Assembly (NCBI RefSeq): GCF_000725345.1
Contig: NZ_CP008852.1
Span: forward strand, 2,844,001-2,908,000
DNA length: 64,000 nt
DNA from: Pelosinus sp. UFO1
Lineage (GTDB): Bacteria > Bacillota > Negativicutes > DSM-13327
Direction of reading: 5' to 3'
Under the pieces are notes generated by a model, which worked only from the letters and a program-made list of their open reading frames with translations, was not told the DNA's origin and did no database searches. Below are positions 19,273 through 35,155 of the stretch, piece after piece (positions within the stretch are counted from its first letter, which is position 1; each line of letters begins with the position of its first letter). The position numbers were made by a program, and so were the translations under genes.

Positions 19273-20274
19273 CTATAATAAATGATATTGAATTGCGATT
19301 TTAAGCTGCTCCATTTCCTTTTCCCTTGCCACGTATAATCCTTCAGCCTCAGCCAAAGAAATTTCTTGGAATCGAATGGTTTCGCCTGGTTTTACCTGAG
19401 CAAGGTAAGCATTATCCACCGCTGCTACCTGAGCAATTTTCGGATATCCCCCTACCGTTTGCCGATCCGCTAATAATACAATTGGATTTCCATCGGGCGG
19501 TACCTGAATGGTTCCAAGTGCAACAGCTTCAGAAACCATTTCTAGCGGTTCCGCCAGCTGTAAGCGAGGTCCTGCTAACCGGTAACCCATTCTATCCGAT
19601 TGAGTGGTAATCTTAAACGCCTGCTGGAAAAAGTGTTCGCGGCTGTCTGAGGTAAAGAATTCAAATTGACTGCTCGGCATAACCCGAATGATATACTCTT
19701 GGGATTTCTGAGACGTATAGAATTTTCCTACATACCAGGACGTAAAGGCAAAGGAGTGACTCCCTAGTTTTTTGCTTAATGACACCAACAATGGCAGATC
19801 TGTTTGCGGCTCTTTTATTAAAAGAACATCACCCGCTAGCAAAGCCCTGCCTTGATAACCGCCAATACCAGCCCTTATATAGGTACTCTTACTGCCCATC
19901 ACCTCTGGAATGTTATAGCCGCCTCGAACAGCTAAATAAGCACGGCACCCTGATTGACATACACCAAATTTCAAAACACTTCCCTGCTTAACCAAAATCG
20001 GTCTCCCCATGGGAATTGGCTGGCCATTAATAGTGGGTGACAAATCTCCTCCTGTTATAGCCAACAGAATATCTTCTTCTAGGAGCAGGGTCGGCCCCAC
20101 TAATGTTATTTCTAGAACTGCTTCGCCCTCCTCATTGCCAACTAACATATTAGCAAGACGCAAGGAGTAAGAATCCATACCGCCACTGACAATGACGCCA
20201 TATTTTTGATACCCAGATCTCCCCAAATCCTGTATGCTGGTTAGAAGACCTGGTGTCATCACTTTTATGCTCAT
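19273..20274 (-). CDS. pxpC: 5-oxoprolinase subunit PxpC (biotin-dependent carboxyltransferase family)
   Basis: This is the KipA/allophanate-hydrolase-subunit-2 type protein, 333 aa. It shows TPGLLTSIQDLGRSGYQKYG, SGGMDSYSLRLANMLVGN, AVRGGYNIPEVMGSKST, QSDRMGYRLAGP and ILLADRQTVGGYPKIA, all standard for the family. PxpA, PxpB and PxpC together cleave 5-oxoproline to glutamate using ATP. The fold is shared with the carboxyltransferase domain of urea carboxylase. It overlaps pxpB by 4 nt. Confidence 0.92.
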   Translation of the reverse strand: MSIKVMTPGLLTSIQDLGRSGYQKYGVIVSGGMDSYSLRLANMLVGNEEGEAVLEITLVGPTLLLEEDILLAITGGDLSPTINGQPIPMGRPILVKQGSVLKFGVCQSGCRAYLAVRGGYNIPEVMGSKSTYIRAGIGGYQGRALLAGDVLLIKEPQTDLPLLVSLSKKLGSHSFAFTSWYVGKFYTSQKSQEYIIRVMPSSQFEFFTSDSREHFFQQAFKITTQSDRMGYRLAGPRLQLAEPLEMVSEAVALGTIQVPPDGNPIVLLADRQTVGGYPKIAQVAAVDNAYLAQVKPGETIRFQEISLAEAEGLYVAREKEMEQLKIAIQYHLL

Positions 20275-21026
20275 GATCTTCCTCCCTTATACGCTTCATA
20301 TTCCTTACGGGAAATAGGATAAAATCGGATGTGATCACCGGACTGCAAGAGACTGGGCGGATTGTTATGGGGCTGAAATAGTTTTAGGGGCGTATTACCG
20401 ATTAACTGCCAGCCGCCAGGTGTTGCAATAGGGTAAACCCCAGTCTGCATACCAGCAATCCCTACAGAACCTGCCGGAATGGACATGCGGGGCGATTGAC
20501 GCCGGGGAGTAGTAATGGCTTCTGACATTCCACCTAAATAAGGAAAACCAGGCGCAAAACCAATCATATAAACAAGATACTGACCACTTGCATGAATTCG
20601 GATTACCTCATCCACGGTAAGATGGTTATATTCTGCTACATATTCTAAATCAGGGCCGAATTCTTCACCATAACACACGGGGAGTTCCACCGTCCTTGGA
20701 GTATAATCCACTCCTTCACCCAATTTTGCAATAATTTCTCTTAACAAAGGAGCAAGGATATTAAAGGAGAGCGGCACTTGTCCTTCTATCCTTTCCCCAT
20801 GCATTTTTTTAATTTCCAGTGGATTATAAAATATCGTAACGCTGGAAAATGCAGATACATATTCAATCATTCCTAGTAAGGGATAGGTATCCAGATATTC
20901 TGTCAACACTTTAACTCTATGGTGTATTTCAGGATGAATCCCTGGGCCAAATTCGATTAAAATGGCAGATTCTCCAAAAGGAAGAATCTTAGGTTCCAGC
21001 CCAACATTCGTAATTACGGAATTCAA
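20271..21026 (-). CDS. pxpB: 5-oxoprolinase subunit PxpB
   Basis: This is the KipI/allophanate-hydrolase-subunit-1 type protein, 251 aa. Family marks are PFGESAILIEFG, VELPVCYGEEFGPDLEYVA, YMIGFAPGFPYLGGM and SVGIAGMQTGVYPIATPGGW. It is co-translated with pxpC and lies 46 nt after pxpA. It forms the second half of the carboxyltransferase-like PxpBC unit. Confidence 0.92.
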   Translation of the reverse strand: MNSVITNVGLEPKILPFGESAILIEFGPGIHPEIHHRVKVLTEYLDTYPLLGMIEYVSAFSSVTIFYNPLEIKKMHGERIEGQVPLSFNILAPLLREIIAKLGEGVDYTPRTVELPVCYGEEFGPDLEYVAEYNHLTVDEVIRIHASGQYLVYMIGFAPGFPYLGGMSEAITTPRRQSPRMSIPAGSVGIAGMQTGVYPIATPGGWQLIGNTPLKLFQPHNNPPSLLQSGDHIRFYPISRKEYEAYKGGRS

Positions 21027-21072
21027 ACTCCCACCTCGCTATCTTAACTCCATAAATCTTTTTTAGCTTACC

Positions 21073-21837
21073 CTACTTAATGCCTACCGCCTGCACAGCT
21101 ATGTTCGACTTCCCCAGTAACTCTCGAATCTGACAGGCAAATTCCAAGGCATGAGCACCATCACCATGGATACAGATCGTATCTGCCTTTATGAAAATAT
21201 CCTTCCCCTGTTGAGATAGAACCGCACCTTCTTTTACCATACGAACGACCTGCGAGACAGCTTGTTTCTGATCAGTAATCAAAGCATTCGGTTCCTTGCG
21301 CGGCGTTAGTGAGCCATCCATCTGATAGGTTCGATCCGCAAATACTTCATGGGCCGTTTTGAGGCCAATTTTCTCACCGGCGAAAACCAATTCACTGCCA
21401 GAAAGACCAAATAAAATAAGCTCTGGATCTACCTTATATATGGCCTCTGCGATAGCCTCAGCAAGATCTTGCCGCTTAGCCGCCATATTATAGAGAGCGC
21501 CATGGGGCTTTACATGCTGCATTGTCCCTCCCTCGGCTTTTATAAAACCAGCAAGAGCACCAATCTGATATACAACCATGTCATAGGCTTCTTGAGAAGA
21601 GATCTCTATACTTCTTCTGCCGAACCCAATTAAATCAGGCAGTCCTGGATGAGCTCCAATGGCTACACCATTTTCAAGAGCAAGCTTGACCGTTTTGTGC
21701 ATAACACCGGGATCTCCTGCATGAAAGCCACATGCAATATTTGCCGATGTGAGGAAAGGTAATATATTCTCATCAACTCCCAACTGGTAAGCACCAAAAC
21801 TTTCTCCTAAATCACAGTTTAAATCCACTCGAAACAT
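21073..21837 (-). CDS. pxpA: 5-oxoprolinase subunit PxpA (LamB/YcsF family)
   Basis: The 254-aa protein begins [16 protein letters not shown] and has [46 protein letters not shown] and [14 protein letters not shown], the full LamB/YcsF signature. It is the PxpA subunit of prokaryotic 5-oxoprolinase. I prefer the second ATG (21837) because GGGAGG lies 6 nt before it. It is the first gene of the operon and lies 36 nt after a terminator-like hairpin that may be an attenuator. Confidence 0.93.
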
Positions 21838-21873
21838 ATGCATCCTCCCTATATGGCTGAAAAAATAATAGAA

Positions 21874-22060: not shown

Positions 22061-23020
22061 TTAACCCTCACTCTTCTTGCATAGGTCCAGGATATCTATA
22101 TAATCTTGCCTTTCCATGCGTAAGGCGTCGATTGCCTCTTTTTCCGTACTCAAAACAAAGCGAATGCGATCCCCTGCTCTTGCCTGAGCCAACTTTGATA
22201 GATCCTTCTGAATTACTGATCCTAATTTAGGAAAACCACGAGTTGTCTGGTGATCCGCTGTCATAATAAAAGGCATACCATGGGAAGGTATTTGAATCGA
22301 CCCGAGACATGCAGCATCAGATATTATCTCAGCCTTATCAATATGTTTAAGTCTAGCACCTTGGAGTCGATAACCAGTCCGATCTGATTGATTTGTTACA
22401 ATATAGAAATTTTCAAAAAAAGTAACTAGCGCCTCTTGGGTAAACATAGTATCTTGAGGACCAAGAATCACTCGTAGTTTGATTTCATCAGCATACGAAG
22501 GAAAATATTTAGGCTCTAAGCTCCTTGATTTTGTATCAAAATCACTATCATGGCCGACATATAAAACATCCCCTTGACGTAAGGATCTTCCTTCATATCC
22601 CCCTACTTTCGCCCAAGAGCAAGTCGATCGGCTCTCTAACACCAGTGGAACTTCAAATCCACCACGAATAGCTAGGTAGGTTCGATATCCGCTGATAGCA
22701 GTATCAAATCTAAGTTCACCCTTTTTCGGAACAATAAAAGATGACCAGCTATTTATGGGCTTACCATTTAAAACTCCTTGCATATCTGCCCCGCAAACAG
22801 CTACGAATTGTTCCTCATCAAATTTAAACGCTGCTCCACAGCCAGTCATTTCTAGGACAGCAGCATTTCTATGGTTACCAACCATTAAATTGGCAACCTG
22901 ATAAGCATACCTATCCATTGCTCCCGAAATAGGCATGCCATATGCCTGATACCCCCAGCGACCTTCATCCTGAATGGTTGTAAAATACCCTTGCTGCGTC
23001 GTCGTAATCACAAAATTCAC
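22061..23020 (-). CDS. second PxpC-like protein (biotin-dependent carboxyltransferase family)
   Basis: This is a 319-aa paralogue of the PxpC at 19273. It keeps GYFTTIQDEGRWGYQAYG, GAMDRYAYQVANLMVGN, AIRGGFEVPLVLESRST, QSDRTGYRLQGA and FIMTADHQTTRGFPKLG. It is clearly divergent from the first copy, not a recent duplicate. It pairs with its own PxpB-like gene 6 nt upstream, has no PxpA, AccB or AccC partner of its own, and is separately terminated. It may use another lactam or amide substrate, which is inference. Confidence 0.9.
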   Translation of the reverse strand: MNFVITTTQQGYFTTIQDEGRWGYQAYGMPISGAMDRYAYQVANLMVGNHRNAAVLEMTGCGAAFKFDEEQFVAVCGADMQGVLNGKPINSWSSFIVPKKGELRFDTAISGYRTYLAIRGGFEVPLVLESRSTCSWAKVGGYEGRSLRQGDVLYVGHDSDFDTKSRSLEPKYFPSYADEIKLRVILGPQDTMFTQEALVTFFENFYIVTNQSDRTGYRLQGARLKHIDKAEIISDAACLGSIQIPSHGMPFIMTADHQTTRGFPKLGSVIQKDLSKLAQARAGDRIRFVLSTEKEAIDALRMERQDYIDILDLCKKSEG

Positions 23021-23026
23021 CTTCCA

Positions 23027-23767
23027 TTACATATAACTCACTCTAGGTACATATTTGTCAGCTTCTACTTCTCTACGGATGGTAAAATATTCATCGATCG
23101 ATATCTCTACAAAGTGCAAATAGTCACCCGGCGAAAATAAAAATGGGTTAGAACTTTTTGGATTAAAAGCCTTTATAGGAGTACGTCCAATCAACCACCA
23201 CTCTCCAGAACTTTCTATTGGATAAAATCCTGTTTGGCTGCCACCTATCCCTACCGATCCTGCCGGAATTTTAGTGCGCGGTTTAACCTGCCGTGGTACC
23301 GCAAGTTGGCTAGGCAAGCCCCCTAAGTAGGGAAAACCGGGAATAAAACCCAGCATATAGACTAAATATGGCTTTGAAGTATGAATGGTTATCATTTTCT
23401 GAGCGGATAATCCAGTATACCTTGCCACTAATTCTATATCAGGGCCTAGAACACCACCATAACAAACGGGTACATGAACAATTTTAGGAGACAGAGATTC
23501 TACGTCTTGCTGCCTAATCTCACTGAAAAGCTCTATGATAAATTGGGATAAATCTTGGCGAGTAATGATTAGTGGATCAAAATAAACTGTTACCGATCGA
23601 TACGTAGGCACAATTTCTATAATACCTTTAATTTTTTTAATCTGAAGTAATCTACTCATTTGTTGTACAAGTACATTAATTGCAGGAGAAATAACAGTCC
23701 CAAATTCAATTACTAATCCATGTTCGCCAGCAACCAGCATTTTAAATTCACTTGCGTATTCTTTCAT
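23027..23767 (-). CDS. second PxpB-like protein
   Basis: This is a 246-aa KipI-family paralogue of the PxpB at 20271, with VHVPVCYGGVLGPDIELVA, YMLGFIPGFPYLGGLPSQ and SVGIGGSQTGFYPIESSGEW. It precedes the second PxpC-like gene with a 6-nt gap. The ATG is behind GAGGTGAGA. A terminator-like hairpin lies 50 nt upstream. Confidence 0.9.
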   Translation of the reverse strand: MKEYASEFKMLVAGEHGLVIEFGTVISPAINVLVQQMSRLLQIKKIKGIIEIVPTYRSVTVYFDPLIITRQDLSQFIIELFSEIRQQDVESLSPKIVHVPVCYGGVLGPDIELVARYTGLSAQKMITIHTSKPYLVYMLGFIPGFPYLGGLPSQLAVPRQVKPRTKIPAGSVGIGGSQTGFYPIESSGEWWLIGRTPIKAFNPKSSNPFLFSPGDYLHFVEISIDEYFTIRREVEADKYVPRVSYM

Positions 23768-25000: not shown

Positions 25001-25033
25001 ACAGATGGAATCCGTTTTGCAGACTCCATCTGT
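25001..25033 (-). terminator. terminator of the DapB-family gene
   Basis: ACAGATGGAATC and GACTCCATCTGT form a stem with one mismatch. A-runs and T-runs flank both sides (TTTTTT on plus, CTCTTTTTG on minus). It lies about 80 nt beyond the DapB-like stop. Confidence 0.75.
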
Positions 25034-25114: not shown

Positions 25115-25882
25115 CTAATATACAGGGATATTCTGTCTGAACATCTCGGCAATTATGTTTTCCATGCTATACATTCCTGGAGGTTGGCCAATGAGAAATT
25201 TTACTGCAAAAATAGCCCCTTGACCAAACGCTGCCCTGCTGATGCTTTCATGAGATAATCGAATAGTTTGATTTGGCATCCCGAAGATGATTTCGTGGCG
25301 CCCAACAATTCCGCCAACGCGAATTGAATTTAGGTGCTCTTCCACATTGAGGTTAAGAGCATTCGCAATTTTTTGTGCTGTTCCCGACACTTCTTTTTTA
25401 CCTTTAAAATGTTCCTCTACAATTTCAATATCTGCATGAGGAGCTATTTTCTGCAAAATTTGGGCTGCTACCAGTAATACGTTAATCCCCAAAGTAATAT
25501 TGGGAGAATAAAGTACCGAAGTAGTCTCTGAAAAGGATTTTAGCAGATCCATTTCCTCCGGTTCATATTTTGAGATAGCAGAAATAATCGGAATTCCCAC
25601 TTCCGCTGCTTTACTATATAAATGAATCCCTGTAGAATCAGAAAAATCTACAAGCGCATCTACTGGATTTTCTAAAAAGAAATCATCATCAATGTCCTCA
25701 ATAGAAAAAATCTCCCCTGCATCAAACTCATATCCTAATAGGCGACTTGCATATTTCTGATGATCCTCGTTACTTCTACGCACTACCCACGCCAGCGTAA
25801 ATAAACTGTCGTTGAGGAATTCATTACTGATAACTTTACCTGTTTTCCCAAAGCCAAAAACACCAATCTTGATTTTCTCCAA
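25115..25882 (-). CDS. DapB-family reductase (divergent dihydrodipicolinate reductase)
   Basis: This is a 255-aa NAD(P)-dependent reductase of the DapB fold: KIGVFGFGKTGKVISNEF (Rossmann start), ALVDFSDSTGIHLYSKAA, SPNITLGINVLLVAAQIL, RVGGIVGRHEIIFGMPNQ and SHESISRAAFGQGAIFAVKF. The canonical DapB catalytic loop (EAHHxxKxDAPSGTA) is altered here to EEHFKGKKEVSGTA, with one residue missing and the second His replaced by Phe. The first His and the SGTA segment remain. It may be the housekeeping dapB or a related reductase such as 2,4-diaminopentanoate dehydrogenase. It stands alone, under a ydaO-type riboswitch. Confidence 0.8.
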   Translation of the reverse strand: MEKIKIGVFGFGKTGKVISNEFLNDSLFTLAWVVRRSNEDHQKYASRLLGYEFDAGEIFSIEDIDDDFFLENPVDALVDFSDSTGIHLYSKAAEVGIPIISAISKYEPEEMDLLKSFSETTSVLYSPNITLGINVLLVAAQILQKIAPHADIEIVEEHFKGKKEVSGTAQKIANALNLNVEEHLNSIRVGGIVGRHEIIFGMPNQTIRLSHESISRAAFGQGAIFAVKFLIGQPPGMYSMENIIAEMFRQNIPVY

Positions 25883-25981
25883 AGAAACTCCTCCTTATAA
25901 CTGTAAGTTGTTAGTCCACTGCTACCTTCATCCTGCATGAAATAGCACTTTTTACAAAACCAGTTTTTGAGAAGGAATATC

Positions 25982-26003
25982 AAAAAAGACCATTAACTGG
26001 TCC
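25982..26003 (-). terminator. expression-platform terminator of the ydaO-type riboswitch
   Basis: On the minus strand GGACCA-GTTAA-TGGTC is followed by six T. It lies about 40 nt after the aptamer and 100 nt before the DapB-like start codon, as expected for a switch that terminates transcription when ligand is bound. Confidence 0.65.
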
Positions 26004-26037
26004 ATTTCTTTATGGCAGGACAACTAAATCCTTCTCT

Positions 26038-26158
26038 TTCAACGCCTACGAGGTTAGCTGACGGATTCGGGCAGAAAGAAATTCGCCCTACCTGCTTGCA
26101 CAGGATTCACCCCAAAAATGGGTCCCCCGCTTCCAATGAATGAAACTCGGCGATTACC
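26038..26158 (-). ncRNA. ydaO/yuaA-type c-di-AMP riboswitch aptamer
   Basis: The minus strand shows the diagnostic blocks in order: an outer stem arm AATCGCC, then GAAGCGGGGGACCCA, GGGGTGAATCC, GGTAGGG, CCCGAATCCGTCAGCTAACC and the closing arm TCGTAGGCGTT. These are the ligand-binding cores of the ydaO family, which senses cyclic di-AMP and normally turns expression off. The RNA lies in the 470-nt gap before the DapB-family gene, with its own promoter and terminator. The identification is by eye but rests on several long conserved strings. Confidence 0.92.
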
Positions 26159-26191
26159 TTATAACTATAGAATTTTAAATTCCCTTTCTAT

Positions 26192-26220
26192 ATCATACAG
26201 TTTTTCTTACTATCTTTCAA
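26192..26220 (-). promoter_or_regulatory. promoter of the riboswitch-DapB transcript
   Basis: On the minus strand TTGAAA (26215-26220) and TATGAT (26192-26197) are separated by 17 nt. Transcription would start about 25 nt before the aptamer. Confidence 0.65.
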
Positions 26221-26302: not shown

Positions 26303-26346
26303 AAAAATCAGCAGCAAAACAAACTGTTGTTTTGCTGCTGATTTTT
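26303..26346 (-). terminator. terminator of the peroxiredoxin gene
   Basis: A perfect 20-bp stem (26303-26322 with 26327-26346) rich in CAGCAG/CTGCTG has A-runs and T-runs at the ends, 7 nt beyond the peroxiredoxin stop. It is bidirectional. Confidence 0.9.
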
Positions 26347-27002: not shown

Positions 27003-27296
27003 TTATTCTTTCTTGCCAAAATCGGTGGTAGCAAATCCTTTCGTTGGAAAAGCGCAATTTTCTGGAGCTATCTTACATCTGTCAGTACGAGCAAATCCCA
27101 TACCTGCCGTACTGCAATCTAATTTACTATCATCTTCTTGAGTGATTTCATCCTGTTTACCAAAGTCAGTATTAGCAAATCCCCTAGTTGGCAAACCGCA
27201 ACTCTCAGAAGCGATATGATTATTTTCTGTACGTGCGAAGCCTTTACCTGCGGTACTACAATCTGATATACTTTCCTCACTATTCTTGTGGGTCAT
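27003..27296 (-). CDS. small protein with an exact internal duplication (CSTAG...GFART repeats)
   Basis: I do not recognise this family. The 97-aa hydrophilic protein contains two 36-residue units (12-47 and 60-95) that share 25 identical positions, of the form DCSTAGxGFART, a variable spacer, IAxExC, PTxGFAxTDFGK. Each unit again has two half-motifs: Cys, then Thr, then GFAxT[DE]. Five cysteines are present, and no signal peptide or membrane helix. AAGGAGG lies 9 nt before the ATG, which supports a real gene. It could be a metal or thiol protein, a spore protein, or a precursor peptide; nothing nearby decides this. Confidence 0.75.
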   Translation of the reverse strand: MTHKNSEESISDCSTAGKGFARTENNHIASESCGLPTRGFANTDFGKQDEITQEDDSKLDCSTAGMGFARTDRCKIAPENCAFPTKGFATTDFGKKE

Positions 27297-27575
27297 ATTA
27301 TAATCCTCCTTCTTAATATCAACAATTTGAGTTGAAAGTTTTAAACTACGTTTATTTTACTTTATATCTGCATTTTCTCCGTTCTTTGTTAAATATATTC
27401 AACTATTTTCCACTCATTATTTTCAATATGATAACTAATTACTCTTTATCGTTTAGTGATATTAATCATTTCTATCGATTCAGAAATCATTATATACTGC
27501 AACCATACATAGGAACTTTTAAATTTAAAAATCTGGAGTTAAGGTTCATACTACTATAGTAACTAACACACAATA
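27297..27575. other. AT-rich intergenic stretch
   Basis: This very T/A-rich sequence lies between the small repeat protein and the degenerate repeat field. It probably contains the small gene's promoter. No convincing gene, RNA or terminator is seen. Confidence 0.5.
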
Positions 27576-27580
27576 AAAAA

Positions 27581-27599
27581 CTAACGGAAGATCCGTTAG
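27581..27599 (-). terminator. terminator at the end of the degenerate repeat field
   Basis: CTAACGGA-AGA-TCCGTTAG forms an 8-bp stem. On the minus strand it is followed by TTTTTTATT, giving a rho-independent terminator for a minus-strand transcript that covers the repeats. Confidence 0.75.
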
Positions 27600-27627
27600 C
27601 TTTAAAAAGAGCCCGTAATGATCTACG

Positions 27628-27985
27628 CTACAGCCAATACCGATCATTACATACCTATACGCAATCTTTCGACTACCCACAAGCATTACACAACCGATAC
27701 TGACCTTTGCTCGACTGCCACAGATACCTACCGAACCGGTCGCAATCTCCCGACAACGGCCGACCCCTATAGCTTCAGCACCCATGACAGTCTTAGCTCG
27801 ACCGTTACACATCCCTTTTGACCACACGACAACAGTTGGGCTGCCGTACAGCCTTACAAGACATATAACGATCTGCCCGCCGACTACTGCCGAACCTTTC
27901 GACCCGACAATAATCTTTGGCCGACCAATACCGAACCCTATTAAGATCCGGCACCAGTCTTGGCTCAACCATTACGAACCCTTTA
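27628..27985. repeat. degenerate tandem repeats of about 42 nt
   Basis: Units begin with CGACTACC-like strings near 27670, 27712, 27751, 27799, 27841, 27881 and 27922, spaced 39-48 nt (mostly 42), and share CCGAACC and CAATCTTT-like blocks. On the minus strand a 140-aa frame reads as about 14-residue glycine-rich units (for example GRAKTVMGAEAIGV and GSRAKVSIGCVMLV). The frame runs through the terminator at 27581-27599 and starts with an unsupported TTG, so it may not be the real product. The segment is more GC-rich than its AT-rich flanks. It may be a decayed repeat gene or a repeated RNA. Confidence 0.6.
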
Positions 27986-32405: not shown

Positions 32406-34886
32406 TTAACGTGCTACAATATTAACTAACTTTCCTGGTACGGCAATTACTTTTATCACTTCTTTACCTGACAGCAAAGCTTGTACTTTTTCTTCCCCTA
32501 GAACCTTTTCTTCCAATTCTTTGGCATTTAAAGTAGCAGAAACAACAATCTTCTCTTTTACCTTGCCATTCATCTGTACAACAATTTCTACTTCCTCTAG
32601 CTCGATTGCTTTTTCATCAAAAATAGGCCACAACTGTTTGTGAACACTACCTTGACCAATCGTTTCACTCCATAATTCTTCTGTAATATGAGGTGCAAAA
32701 GGAGCTAATAAACATAATAAACTTGATACGGTCTCCCTCACCAATCCAGGATTTAATGATATATTCTGATCTTTAATAGTATACATGGCATTTACCAATT
32801 CCATGATAGAGCTGATAGCTGTATTAAAATTAAAACGATCGCCAATGTCTTCCGTTACCTTTTTAATTGTCCCATGCAATACACGTCTAAGGTTACGTTC
32901 ATCCTTAGTAAGAGTGCTACTATCATACTCAGTTTCTTCCCCTGCCATGAAAGAAGCATAATGATCAATTATACGCCATAAACGTCCTAAGAAACGATAA
33001 GAACCTTCTACTGCTTGGTCATTCCATTCTAAATCACGCTCAGGTGGTGCCGCAAATAGAATAAATAACCGGGCTGTATCCGCGCCATATTTTGCAATGA
33101 TTTCCTCAGGAGATACTACATTGCCTTTTGACTTAGACATTTTAGAACCATCTTTAATAACCATACCCTGTGTTAGCAAGTTTTTGAAAGGCTCATTCAC
33201 ATTAATTAAACCAGCATCTTTTAATACTTTAGTAAAAAATCTTGAATACAATAGATGCAATATAGCATGTTCAATGCCGCCAATATATTGATCTACAGGT
33301 GCCCAATAGTCTGCTTTTGTAGAATCAAAAGGCGCTAACATATTCTTCGGATCTGTGTAACGCATATAATACCAAGAAGAACAAATAAAAGTGTCCATAG
33401 TATCTGTCTCACGTTTAGCAGCACCGCCACATTCAGGGCATGTGCAGTTTACAAATTCTTCTACCTTAGCTAGAGGCGAAACAGAACCTGCACTGAAATT
33501 AACATTTTCCGGTAATAAGACAGGTAACTGATCTTTAGGTACAGGTACACTACCACAGCTAGGACAATTAATAAGGGGAATTGGTGCGCCCCAATACCGC
33601 TGACGCGAAACTAACCAGTCACGTAAGCGATAATTTACACGCCGTTTGCCATAACCTTGTTCTTCCAACCATTTTGCAATTGCGACCTTCCCAGCTTCAC
33701 TCTTCAATCCCGTAAATTGTCCAGAATTTACGATAACACCATCACCATCGTAGGCACCTGTCATAGATTCAATCGTTAGCTCTTGCCCTTCAGGTTGTAT
33801 TACCAATTTTTTTGCTAATTTATATTTATTAGCGAATTGCCAGTCTCGTTCGTCATGTGCAGGAACGCCCATTACTGCTCCCGTACCATATTCCACTAAT
33901 ACATAATTAGCTACCCAAATTGGCACTTTTTCATCAGTAAAAGGATTGACTGCATACGCCCCAGTAAACATGCCTTCCTTCTCAAATTCACTAGAAGTAC
34001 GACTAATTTCGCTCATATTTCTTACTTTTTCTACAAATTGACGAACAGCCTGTTCATTTTCTTTACCAGCAATAAGTTTCTCAACTAGTTTATGTTCAGG
34101 GGCTAATACCACATAACTTACCCCAAAAACGGTATCATGCCTAGTTGTATAGACAGCGATTTCTTCTTCAAAGTCAGCTACGGCAAAGGTAAACTCGGCC
34201 CCTTCACTGCGACCAATCCAATTTTCTTGCATAGTTTTGACTCGCTCAGGCCAGCCTTTTAATTCGCTAAGATCACTTAAGAGTCGATCTGCATATTCTG
34301 TTATTTTGAAGAACCATTGTTCTAATTCTTTTTTCACCACGACGGAATCACAGCGCCAACAGCAGCCATCAATTACCTGTTCATTTGCTAGTACCGTATT
34401 ACAGTCATTACACCAATTTACCGCTGCTTTTTTCTTATAAGCAAGTCCTCGTTCCACGAACAGCAAGAATAACCATTGGGTCCAACGATAATAGTCAGGG
34501 TGACATGTGGCAACTTCTCTATCCCAGTCGTAGGATAGTCCCAATTCTTGTTGTTGACGGCGCATATTTGCTATATTTTCCCATGTCCATTCTGCTGGGT
34601 GAACACCATGTTTAATTGCTGCATTTTCTGCAGGCATACCAAAGGAATCCCATCCCATTGGATGAAGAACATTATAGCCTTGCATGCTTTTAAATCTAGC
34701 AATTACATCACCTATCGAATAATTGCGTACATGACCCATATGTAAATTGCCCGATGGATAAGGGAACATTTCTAGAACGTAATATTCCGGGCGCTGACGA
34801 TTTAGCTCTGTCTTAAAAGTGTTGTGCTCAGCCCAGTGCTTTTGCCATTTTGATTCAATTTCCTTAGGAACATATCTTTCATTCAT
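32406..34886 (-). CDS. leuS: leucyl-tRNA synthetase
   Basis: LeuRS charges tRNA(Leu). The 826-aa protein has the class I HIGH-type motif [14 protein letters not shown] near residue 45, the zinc-binding and editing insertions ([32 protein letters not shown]), [16 protein letters not shown] as the KMSKS loop, and a C-terminal anticodon-binding part. Length is typical of bacterial LeuRS. Expression is controlled by a leucine T-box leader upstream. Confidence 0.97.
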
Positions 34887-34920: not shown

Positions 34921-34948
34921 CCGCCCCTTGGCTAATTAGCCAGGGACG
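34921..34948 (-). terminator. T-box leader terminator of leuS
   Basis: CGTCCCTGGCTAA-TTAGCC-AAGGGGCGG on the minus strand forms a strong stem followed by TTTTTTATTTTT, directly before the leuS binding site. It is the regulated terminator of the T-box. Confidence 0.85.
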
Positions 34949-35155
34949 AGTTATACATACCCGCGATACCACCCTGATTGATAGCAACTGCCATCCTCTC
35001 AATGATTGTTAACGCTAATCAAGCGTTAGCCACTACTAATTCATGGCTACTCCTCCGCAGTGAGTTCAACTTATTTGGGATTGGCTCGCATCATCCGCCA
35101 ACTGTCTGCACCACAAATAAAAGCTTACTATTCTGCCTCGTAGGACTTACACAAT
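34921..35155 (-). ncRNA. T-box leader (leucine) upstream of leuS
   Basis: The minus strand carries the T-box sequence AGGGTGGTATCGCGGG (34958-34973), followed by the terminator stem at 34921-34948. Upstream lies a long stem I region of about 100 nt. A CTC triplet at 35064-35062 within GAACTCACTG is a plausible leucine specifier, but I could not fold stem I to prove it. Binding of uncharged tRNA(Leu) would stabilise the antiterminator and switch leuS on. Confidence 0.92.

Follow-up and report, generated by a model that had tools for sequence, protein, structure and literature searches.

Cyclic di-AMP (c-di-AMP) is a bacterial signal molecule that reports osmotic pressure. In the described systems closest to the locus analyzed here, tandem Na+-I and c-di-AMP riboswitches precede the Acetivibrio cellulolyticus dapB and the Dehalobacter ablA, and the dapB behind the tandem switch was interpreted as a lysine/peptidoglycan enzyme (White et al. 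2022, PMC9337991). A c-di-AMP switch ahead of ablA was OFF in vitro (PMC9337991). BusR, a GntR-RCK_C protein, is a c-di-AMP-binding repressor of betaine uptake (PMC8517857). The gene that we describe, a divergent DapB-family paralogue here named dapX, has in common with the tandem switches a c-di-AMP switch before a DapB-family gene, a probable osmotic logic and a link to ablA. It departs from the published interpretation in being a distinct paralogue that exists alongside a dapB under a lysine riboswitch, mostly with a c-di-AMP switch alone. Unlike BusR, which is a protein regulator, the control element of dapX is a riboswitch.

The window, the whole stretch of 64,000 nucleotides of Pelosinus sp. 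UFO1 DNA that we analyzed, contains a c-di-AMP aptamer ahead of dapX. The first-pass annotation of this DNA had recognized a ydaO/yuaA aptamer and proposed an Rfam search. The Rfam covariance model RF00379 matched positions 26029..26162 of the minus strand end to end (model positions 1-134 of 134; 105.1 bits, E 6e-24), where membership is defined by a score above the gathering cut-off of 38 bits over the full aptamer. Two Rfam elements in the window reached their gathering scores, both on the minus strand: this aptamer (26162-26029) and a T-box (35150-34939). The T-box leader (34939-35150, 128.9 bits) lies upstream of a leucyl-tRNA synthetase-like gene (32406-34886). The 5.1 Mb Pelosinus genome has four RF00379 aptamers, the window copy included; by-eye reading of translations indicated that the other three (L002, L003, L004) adjoin cell-wall genes of the NlpC/P60-like and 3D-domain-like types, which such aptamers usually control. 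Diadenylate cyclases were present in 13/13 genomes tested, with three in the Pelosinus genome.

dapX stands alone in its transcription unit. A sigma-70 type promoter, TTGAAA-17-TATGAT (26192..26220, minus strand), matches the consensus at 10/12 positions, and the motif with spacers of 15 to 19 occurs once in the window, against 0.2 occurrences expected. The gene itself (25115..25882, minus strand) has a TTG start and encodes a protein of 255 amino acids with the Pfam domains DapB_N and DapB_C. Because a strong bidirectional terminator with a 20-pair stem (26303..26346) separates an ahpC-type gene from the dapX leader, and a second terminator with a 14-bp stem and a T run (25001..25033, minus strand) follows dapX, the transcription unit is monocistronic. 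At the level of sequence, the aptamer, promoter, protein domains and flanking terminators confirm the earlier description of a complete c-di-AMP riboswitch with a single stand-alone, divergent DapB-family gene. The genes downstream of dapX in the window are a LysR gene and 5-oxoprolinase-type genes, and there are no osmotic neighbors. The LysR gene is followed by two close pairs of pxpB/pxpC-like (5-oxoprolinase subunit) genes (19273-21843 and 22061-23767, minus strand), one pair with a pxpA-like gene. Elsewhere in the window, at 27003-27968 on the minus strand, two open reading frames have a repetitive composition (GFART/CSTAGKGF and GSRAK-like units), in which TRF detected no tandem repeat.

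dapX is a DapB-family paralogue and not the housekeeping dapB. The Pelosinus genome encodes three DapB-family proteins: the window protein, an intermediate form (L005, with the loop EEHHKYKKDSPSGTA) and a canonical one (L006). The first-pass annotation had suggested looking for another canonical dapB in the genome, and L006 is that gene, with a score of 291 against the NCBIfam dapB equivalog TIGR00036, the loop ELHHDQKLDAPSGTA and an adjoining asd-type gene. The window protein scored 104.3 against the same model, below its cut-off of 122, which some Clostridial DapX members exceed (122.1 and 139.7). In a search of 380 genomes of the class, orthologues scored at least 344 bits and the next paralogue at most 173, a clear gap. 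In a tree of 87 sequences, the 41 DapX proteins, which come from Bacillota, Bacteroidota, Kapabacteria and a Thiothrix plasmid, formed a single clade (100/100); its sister clade was the L005 type (L5), and canonical DapB was separate, on a long branch. The bootstrap for this tree had yet to settle completely. All 25 of the 25 DapX genomes examined also encode canonical DapB, with the DAPSGTA loop in every one whose sequence was read.

DapX relatives outside the class were found in Clostridia, Bacteroidota, Kapabacteria and on a Thiothrix plasmid. There was no match among 10 genomes of a further Bacillota class, an absence that is uninformative from so few. Viral contigs contained no DapX relatives and phage records only distant DapB, and on these results we rejected phage-borne spread of dapX. 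Clustering of the genes around dapX revealed no widely shared operon partners, so the substrate of the enzyme is not readable from an operon.

The regulation of dapX differs from that of its paralogues. A c-di-AMP aptamer lies directly upstream of 17 of the 41 dapX genes, in about ten lineages and 3-160 nt from the start codon; the loci were gathered by protein similarity alone, and one further dapX gene was cut by a contig end. The other 24, including all of those outside Bacillota, have no riboswitch. As a control, we searched 20 paralogue loci and found no c-di-AMP aptamer at 14 canonical dapB loci or at six L5-type loci. Lysine riboswitches were present at 13/14 of the canonical loci, among them Pelosinus L006 (118 bits), which therefore has both housekeeping traits, lysine-responsive control and an asd neighbor; dapX has neither. 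Given c-di-AMP riboswitches on the one and lysine riboswitches on the other, DapX and canonical DapB in a given genome respond to different signals. Separately, L005 of the Pelosinus genome (L005/L126, G000:C1:4960539-4960886) is convergent to a gene for a GntR-TrkA_C regulator of BusR-like make-up, and within the family this neighbor of the L5-type paralogue occurs only in the three genomes that also carry dapX.

These distributions bear on whether the riboswitch is a chance neighbor with no part in dapX regulation. The first-pass annotation had held that finding the gene in relatives without the leader would count against its proposal, and the outcome was mixed: 24/41 genes lack the riboswitch, as a chance placement would allow, but 17/41 have kept it. 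The recurrence of the riboswitch upstream of dapX in about ten lineages, always within 160 nt of the start codon, already contradicts coincidence, as do the scarcity of aptamers (four in the 5.1 Mb Pelosinus genome), their absence from the paralogue loci and the Shine-Dalgarno sequence built into the aptamer in seven of the genes. We consider a chance placement extremely improbable.

The anatomy of the leader fits an OFF switch that works mainly via the ribosome-binding site. On the minus strand, the aptamer ends in the 3' strand GAAAGAGAAGGA (26029..26040), a putative pseudoknot and regulatory strand with only one variable position across seven related leaders. It is followed by the invariant segment GUCCUGCC (26014..26021), which in the leader alignment is complementary to the loop of a downstream GCAGG hairpin, by a small terminator-like hairpin with a T run (25981..26003), and by UUCCUUCUC (25969..25977), a perfect complement of the aptamer strand GAGAAGGA that, in the predicted fold, can also pair with the Shine-Dalgarno sequence. 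The hairpin with the apical loop GCAGG (25921..25946) has some compensatory stem changes, and the Shine-Dalgarno sequence AAGGAGGAG (25888..25896) stands 5 nt before the TTG start.

This long leader (124-153 nt) is common to the window, a close relative, four Sporomusa-type genomes and one Peptoclostridium. In the seven leaders GAGAAGGA, GUCCUGCC and UCCUUCUC are invariant, and the GCAGG hairpin loop is complementary to a nearly invariant GUCCUGC. UCCUUCUC is the exact complement of GAGAAGGA, and in none of the seven did more than 1 of 500 shuffles equal this match. Pairing of UCCUUCUC with the Shine-Dalgarno sequence was predicted with P ~0.87 in the window leader and ~0.82-1.0 in six of the seven, and a match of the leader to the Shine-Dalgarno sequence alone was not unusual among shuffles. 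When folded in isolation, six of the seven leaders sequestered the Shine-Dalgarno sequence with or without a ligand-bound constraint, and only for the seventh (L033) did the prediction alternate between both pairings, in keeping with the switch model. The switch would therefore have to be kinetic.

In other lineages the arrangement is different. In seven genes of four families, the aptamer 3' strand itself contains the Shine-Dalgarno sequence, 3-6 nt before the start codon, and this strand is predicted to pair with an aptamer loop (-8 to -14 kcal/mol). On this reading of the leaders, placing the Shine-Dalgarno sequence inside the aptamer strand is a direct way of hiding the ribosome-binding site upon ligand binding.

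The in-leader terminator fared less well. The leader had been described as promoter, aptamer and terminator, of which the first two stand. The putative terminator (26003-25987 plus a T run) has a stem of just 6 bp, the region 25950-26029 folded no better than shuffled sequences (z -0.33), and some relatives lack the U run. We therefore rejected the idea that expression is controlled solely through a conserved intrinsic terminator; the hairpin in the window is accessory at best, and two Clostridial leaders (L041, L042) have a stronger one. A small upstream open reading frame in the leader was also dropped: its ATG is absent from L033, and other relatives do not preserve its frame.

The DapX protein has the fold and most of the active site of DapB. 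Its AlphaFold model (pLDDT 91) was most similar in the PDB to DapB structures (Z 26), followed by amine dehydrogenases (Z about 17). We rejected assignment as a 2,4-diaminopentanoate or other amine dehydrogenase, based on the difference in Z and because these enzymes require a C-terminal domain of their own and DapX has DapB_N and DapB_C only. His158, Lys162 and Ser166-Gly167-Thr168 are present in 100% of the 41 DapX proteins and Arg216 in 97%; following the roles known for E. coli DapB, we take the His and Lys to be catalytic and the SGT and Arg to bind carboxylate. DapX thus shares with canonical DapB, the HTPA reductase of TIGR00036, its fold, both Pfam domains and these residues. It differs in its separate clade, its riboswitch and several active-site segments: HH is changed to HF, the second His being F or Y in 41/41 DapX proteins; the DAPSGT loop, EEHFKGKKEVSGTA in the window protein versus canonical ExHHxxKxDAPSGTA, is one residue shorter; and GTTG is replaced by SA[IV]S and PNF by PNI, all of these changes being nearly fixed across the clade.

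The first-pass annotation had reported this loop correctly and suggested from it a different substrate. That step is weakened by Arabidopsis DapB, in which the loop (ESHQASKLDASGTA) is likewise one residue shorter and the second His is lost. Plant DapB (5ua0, 7t34) shares with DapX a catalytic loop of 14 residues that lacks the second His, yet is a housekeeping enzyme, and its overall sequence is no closer to DapX. The loop changes alone therefore do not exclude HTPA reductase activity, and we rejected them as proof of a new substrate. The clade-wide changes of GTTG and PNF may nonetheless reflect a different substrate, and the cofactor is probably NADPH, to judge from an Arg that ends the second strand. 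We place HTPA reductase activity, or one closely related to it, a little short of an even prospect.

The fixed changes in the cofactor- and substrate-loop segments are also what would be expected if DapX made its own, unrecognized compatible solute in one step, for example by reducing a cyclic imine (tetrahydrodipicolinate, piperideine- or pyrroline-carboxylate) independently of lysine. The spread of dapX as a single gene over several phyla with no conserved operon partners, and the constant presence of canonical dapB in DapX genomes, fit such an enzyme as well. However, DapX retains the residues with which DapB is believed to hold the dicarboxylate, a shortened loop is found in plant DapB too, and in one genome (G668) a dapA equivalog (TIGR00674, 333 bits) is directly upstream of dapX. 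A solute made without lysine is possible, although we lean against it.

Both the neighbors of dapX and the tandem switches speak for osmotic or ion stress more than for peptidoglycan. One DapX locus (L039) has a Na+ riboswitch in tandem with the c-di-AMP aptamer directly ahead of dapX, the same architecture as at Acetivibrio cellulolyticus dapB. ablA-ablB, defined as a lysine 2,3-aminomutase gene with an adjacent beta-lysine acetyltransferase gene, is near dapX in three genomes. In G349, dapX is divergent from a tandem Na+ and c-di-AMP switch (33 bits, below the cut-off of 40.5, and 102 bits, respectively) that is followed by ablA and ablB; in G190, ablA, ablB and dapX are co-directional, with an in-frame stop in dapX; and in G459, ablAB is 2-4 kb from dapX. 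The stop in the G190 gene (L055, 9340-9963, minus strand) is a TGA at the position of an invariant Arg in relatives. DUF389 proteins are encoded within 1.4 kb of dapX in four genera, and further neighbors include a CLC channel with TrkA_C, an ion-transporter-superfamily (CitMHS) protein, MscS-type channels, NhaB and a Na/Ca exchanger; these classes were chosen after inspection, and the counts are descriptive. The Thiothrix plasmid gene is set among Na+/H+ and Ca/Na antiporters. In G458, a gene for a GntR-TrkA_C regulator follows dapX on the same strand; this regulator, like that beside the L5-type paralogue in Pelosinus, resembles BusR by domains. In two genomes, S. ovata and G459, a c-di-GMP-I riboswitch is just downstream of dapX (L034, 5103-5187; also L066 and L075), and in L034 it precedes a chemotaxis-receptor gene. 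Overall, we consider an osmoadaptive role for DapX likely.

The link to beta-lysine is not general. AblB was found in 7/25 DapX genomes, with none above the cut-off in Pelosinus, where KamA adjoins CoA-transferase-like genes and so falls outside the definition of ablAB. DapX is therefore not tied to beta-lysine, and we rejected N-epsilon-acetyl-beta-lysine as its general product; the lack of ablB in most DapX genomes also speaks for a solute of its own.

This gene context also bears on the proposal of the first-pass annotation that the riboswitch links c-di-AMP directly to peptidoglycan precursor supply. We did not find support for that link: it is a lysine riboswitch that precedes the housekeeping dapB, and what surrounds dapX in relatives is osmotic and ionic. 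Much the same evidence weighs on dapX being a plain second dapB, with which stressed cells would obtain more diaminopimelate/lysine for peptidoglycan or for lysine itself, in line with what White et al. 2022 suggest about the tandem-switch dapB. That is the published reading of the Acetivibrio cellulolyticus switch (PMC9337991), and it would suit the location of the other three Pelosinus c-di-AMP switches beside cell-wall hydrolase-like genes. Nevertheless, Pelosinus DapX falls under the dapB equivalog cut-off, DapX is a distinct clade with fixed active-site changes, and its neighbors in relatives are ion and osmotic genes, not cell-wall genes. We regard a plain second dapB as unlikely.

The explanation that we prefer (probability roughly 0.55) is that dapX serves in osmotic stress, is controlled by a c-di-AMP OFF switch and encodes a DapB-fold reductase that feeds a compatible solute. 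When c-di-AMP is high, that is, without osmotic stress, the aptamer would close and retain its 3' strand GAAAGAGAAGGA, leaving the downstream UUCCUUCUC free to pair with the Shine-Dalgarno sequence and block translation; a terminator may contribute in some lineages, and in others the Shine-Dalgarno sequence would be the aptamer strand itself. When c-di-AMP falls, GAGAAGGA would pair with UCCUUCUC during transcription and the ribosome-binding site would open. DapX, probably NADPH-dependent, would then escape lysine feedback and reduce either the substrate of DapB or a closely similar cyclic imine; its product would feed a compatible solute, of the lysine/N-epsilon-acetyl-beta-lysine kind where ablAB is present. 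The aptamer, promoter, paralogue status, regulatory split, complementarities and gene context are established directly, and from them we infer the OFF direction, switch kinetics, cofactor, substrate and product. An OFF response is also what was observed in vitro for a c-di-AMP switch in front of ablA (PMC9337991). Several observations weigh against this explanation: the dapX genes that have no riboswitch, the lack of AblB from Pelosinus and most other DapX genomes, the altered GTTG and PNF segments, the predicted folds in which the Shine-Dalgarno sequence is sequestered whether or not ligand is bound, the unremarkable match of the leader to that sequence, the stop in the G190 gene and the lack of osmotic neighbors in the window.

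Tandem Na+/c-di-AMP switches in front of "dapB" are already published (PMC9337991). To the open literature we add a discrete family of paralogues and how far it has spread, the presence of a lysine-switched dapB in the same genomes, the ablAB and ion-transport context and the Shine-Dalgarno-based logic of the leader. A bolder proposition, which we offer tentatively and think improbable as a whole, is that DapX is a one-gene module for an unrecognized compatible solute, exchanged between phyla, and that a new c-di-AMP- and Na+-controlled osmoadaptation pathway is hidden under the label dapB. Genes so labelled behind c-di-AMP or Na+ switches have so far been read as supplying lysine or peptidoglycan, and a separate paralogue family shifts that reading to osmoadaptation, with DapX as a clear, testable candidate enzyme in culturable anaerobes such as Sporomusa ovata.
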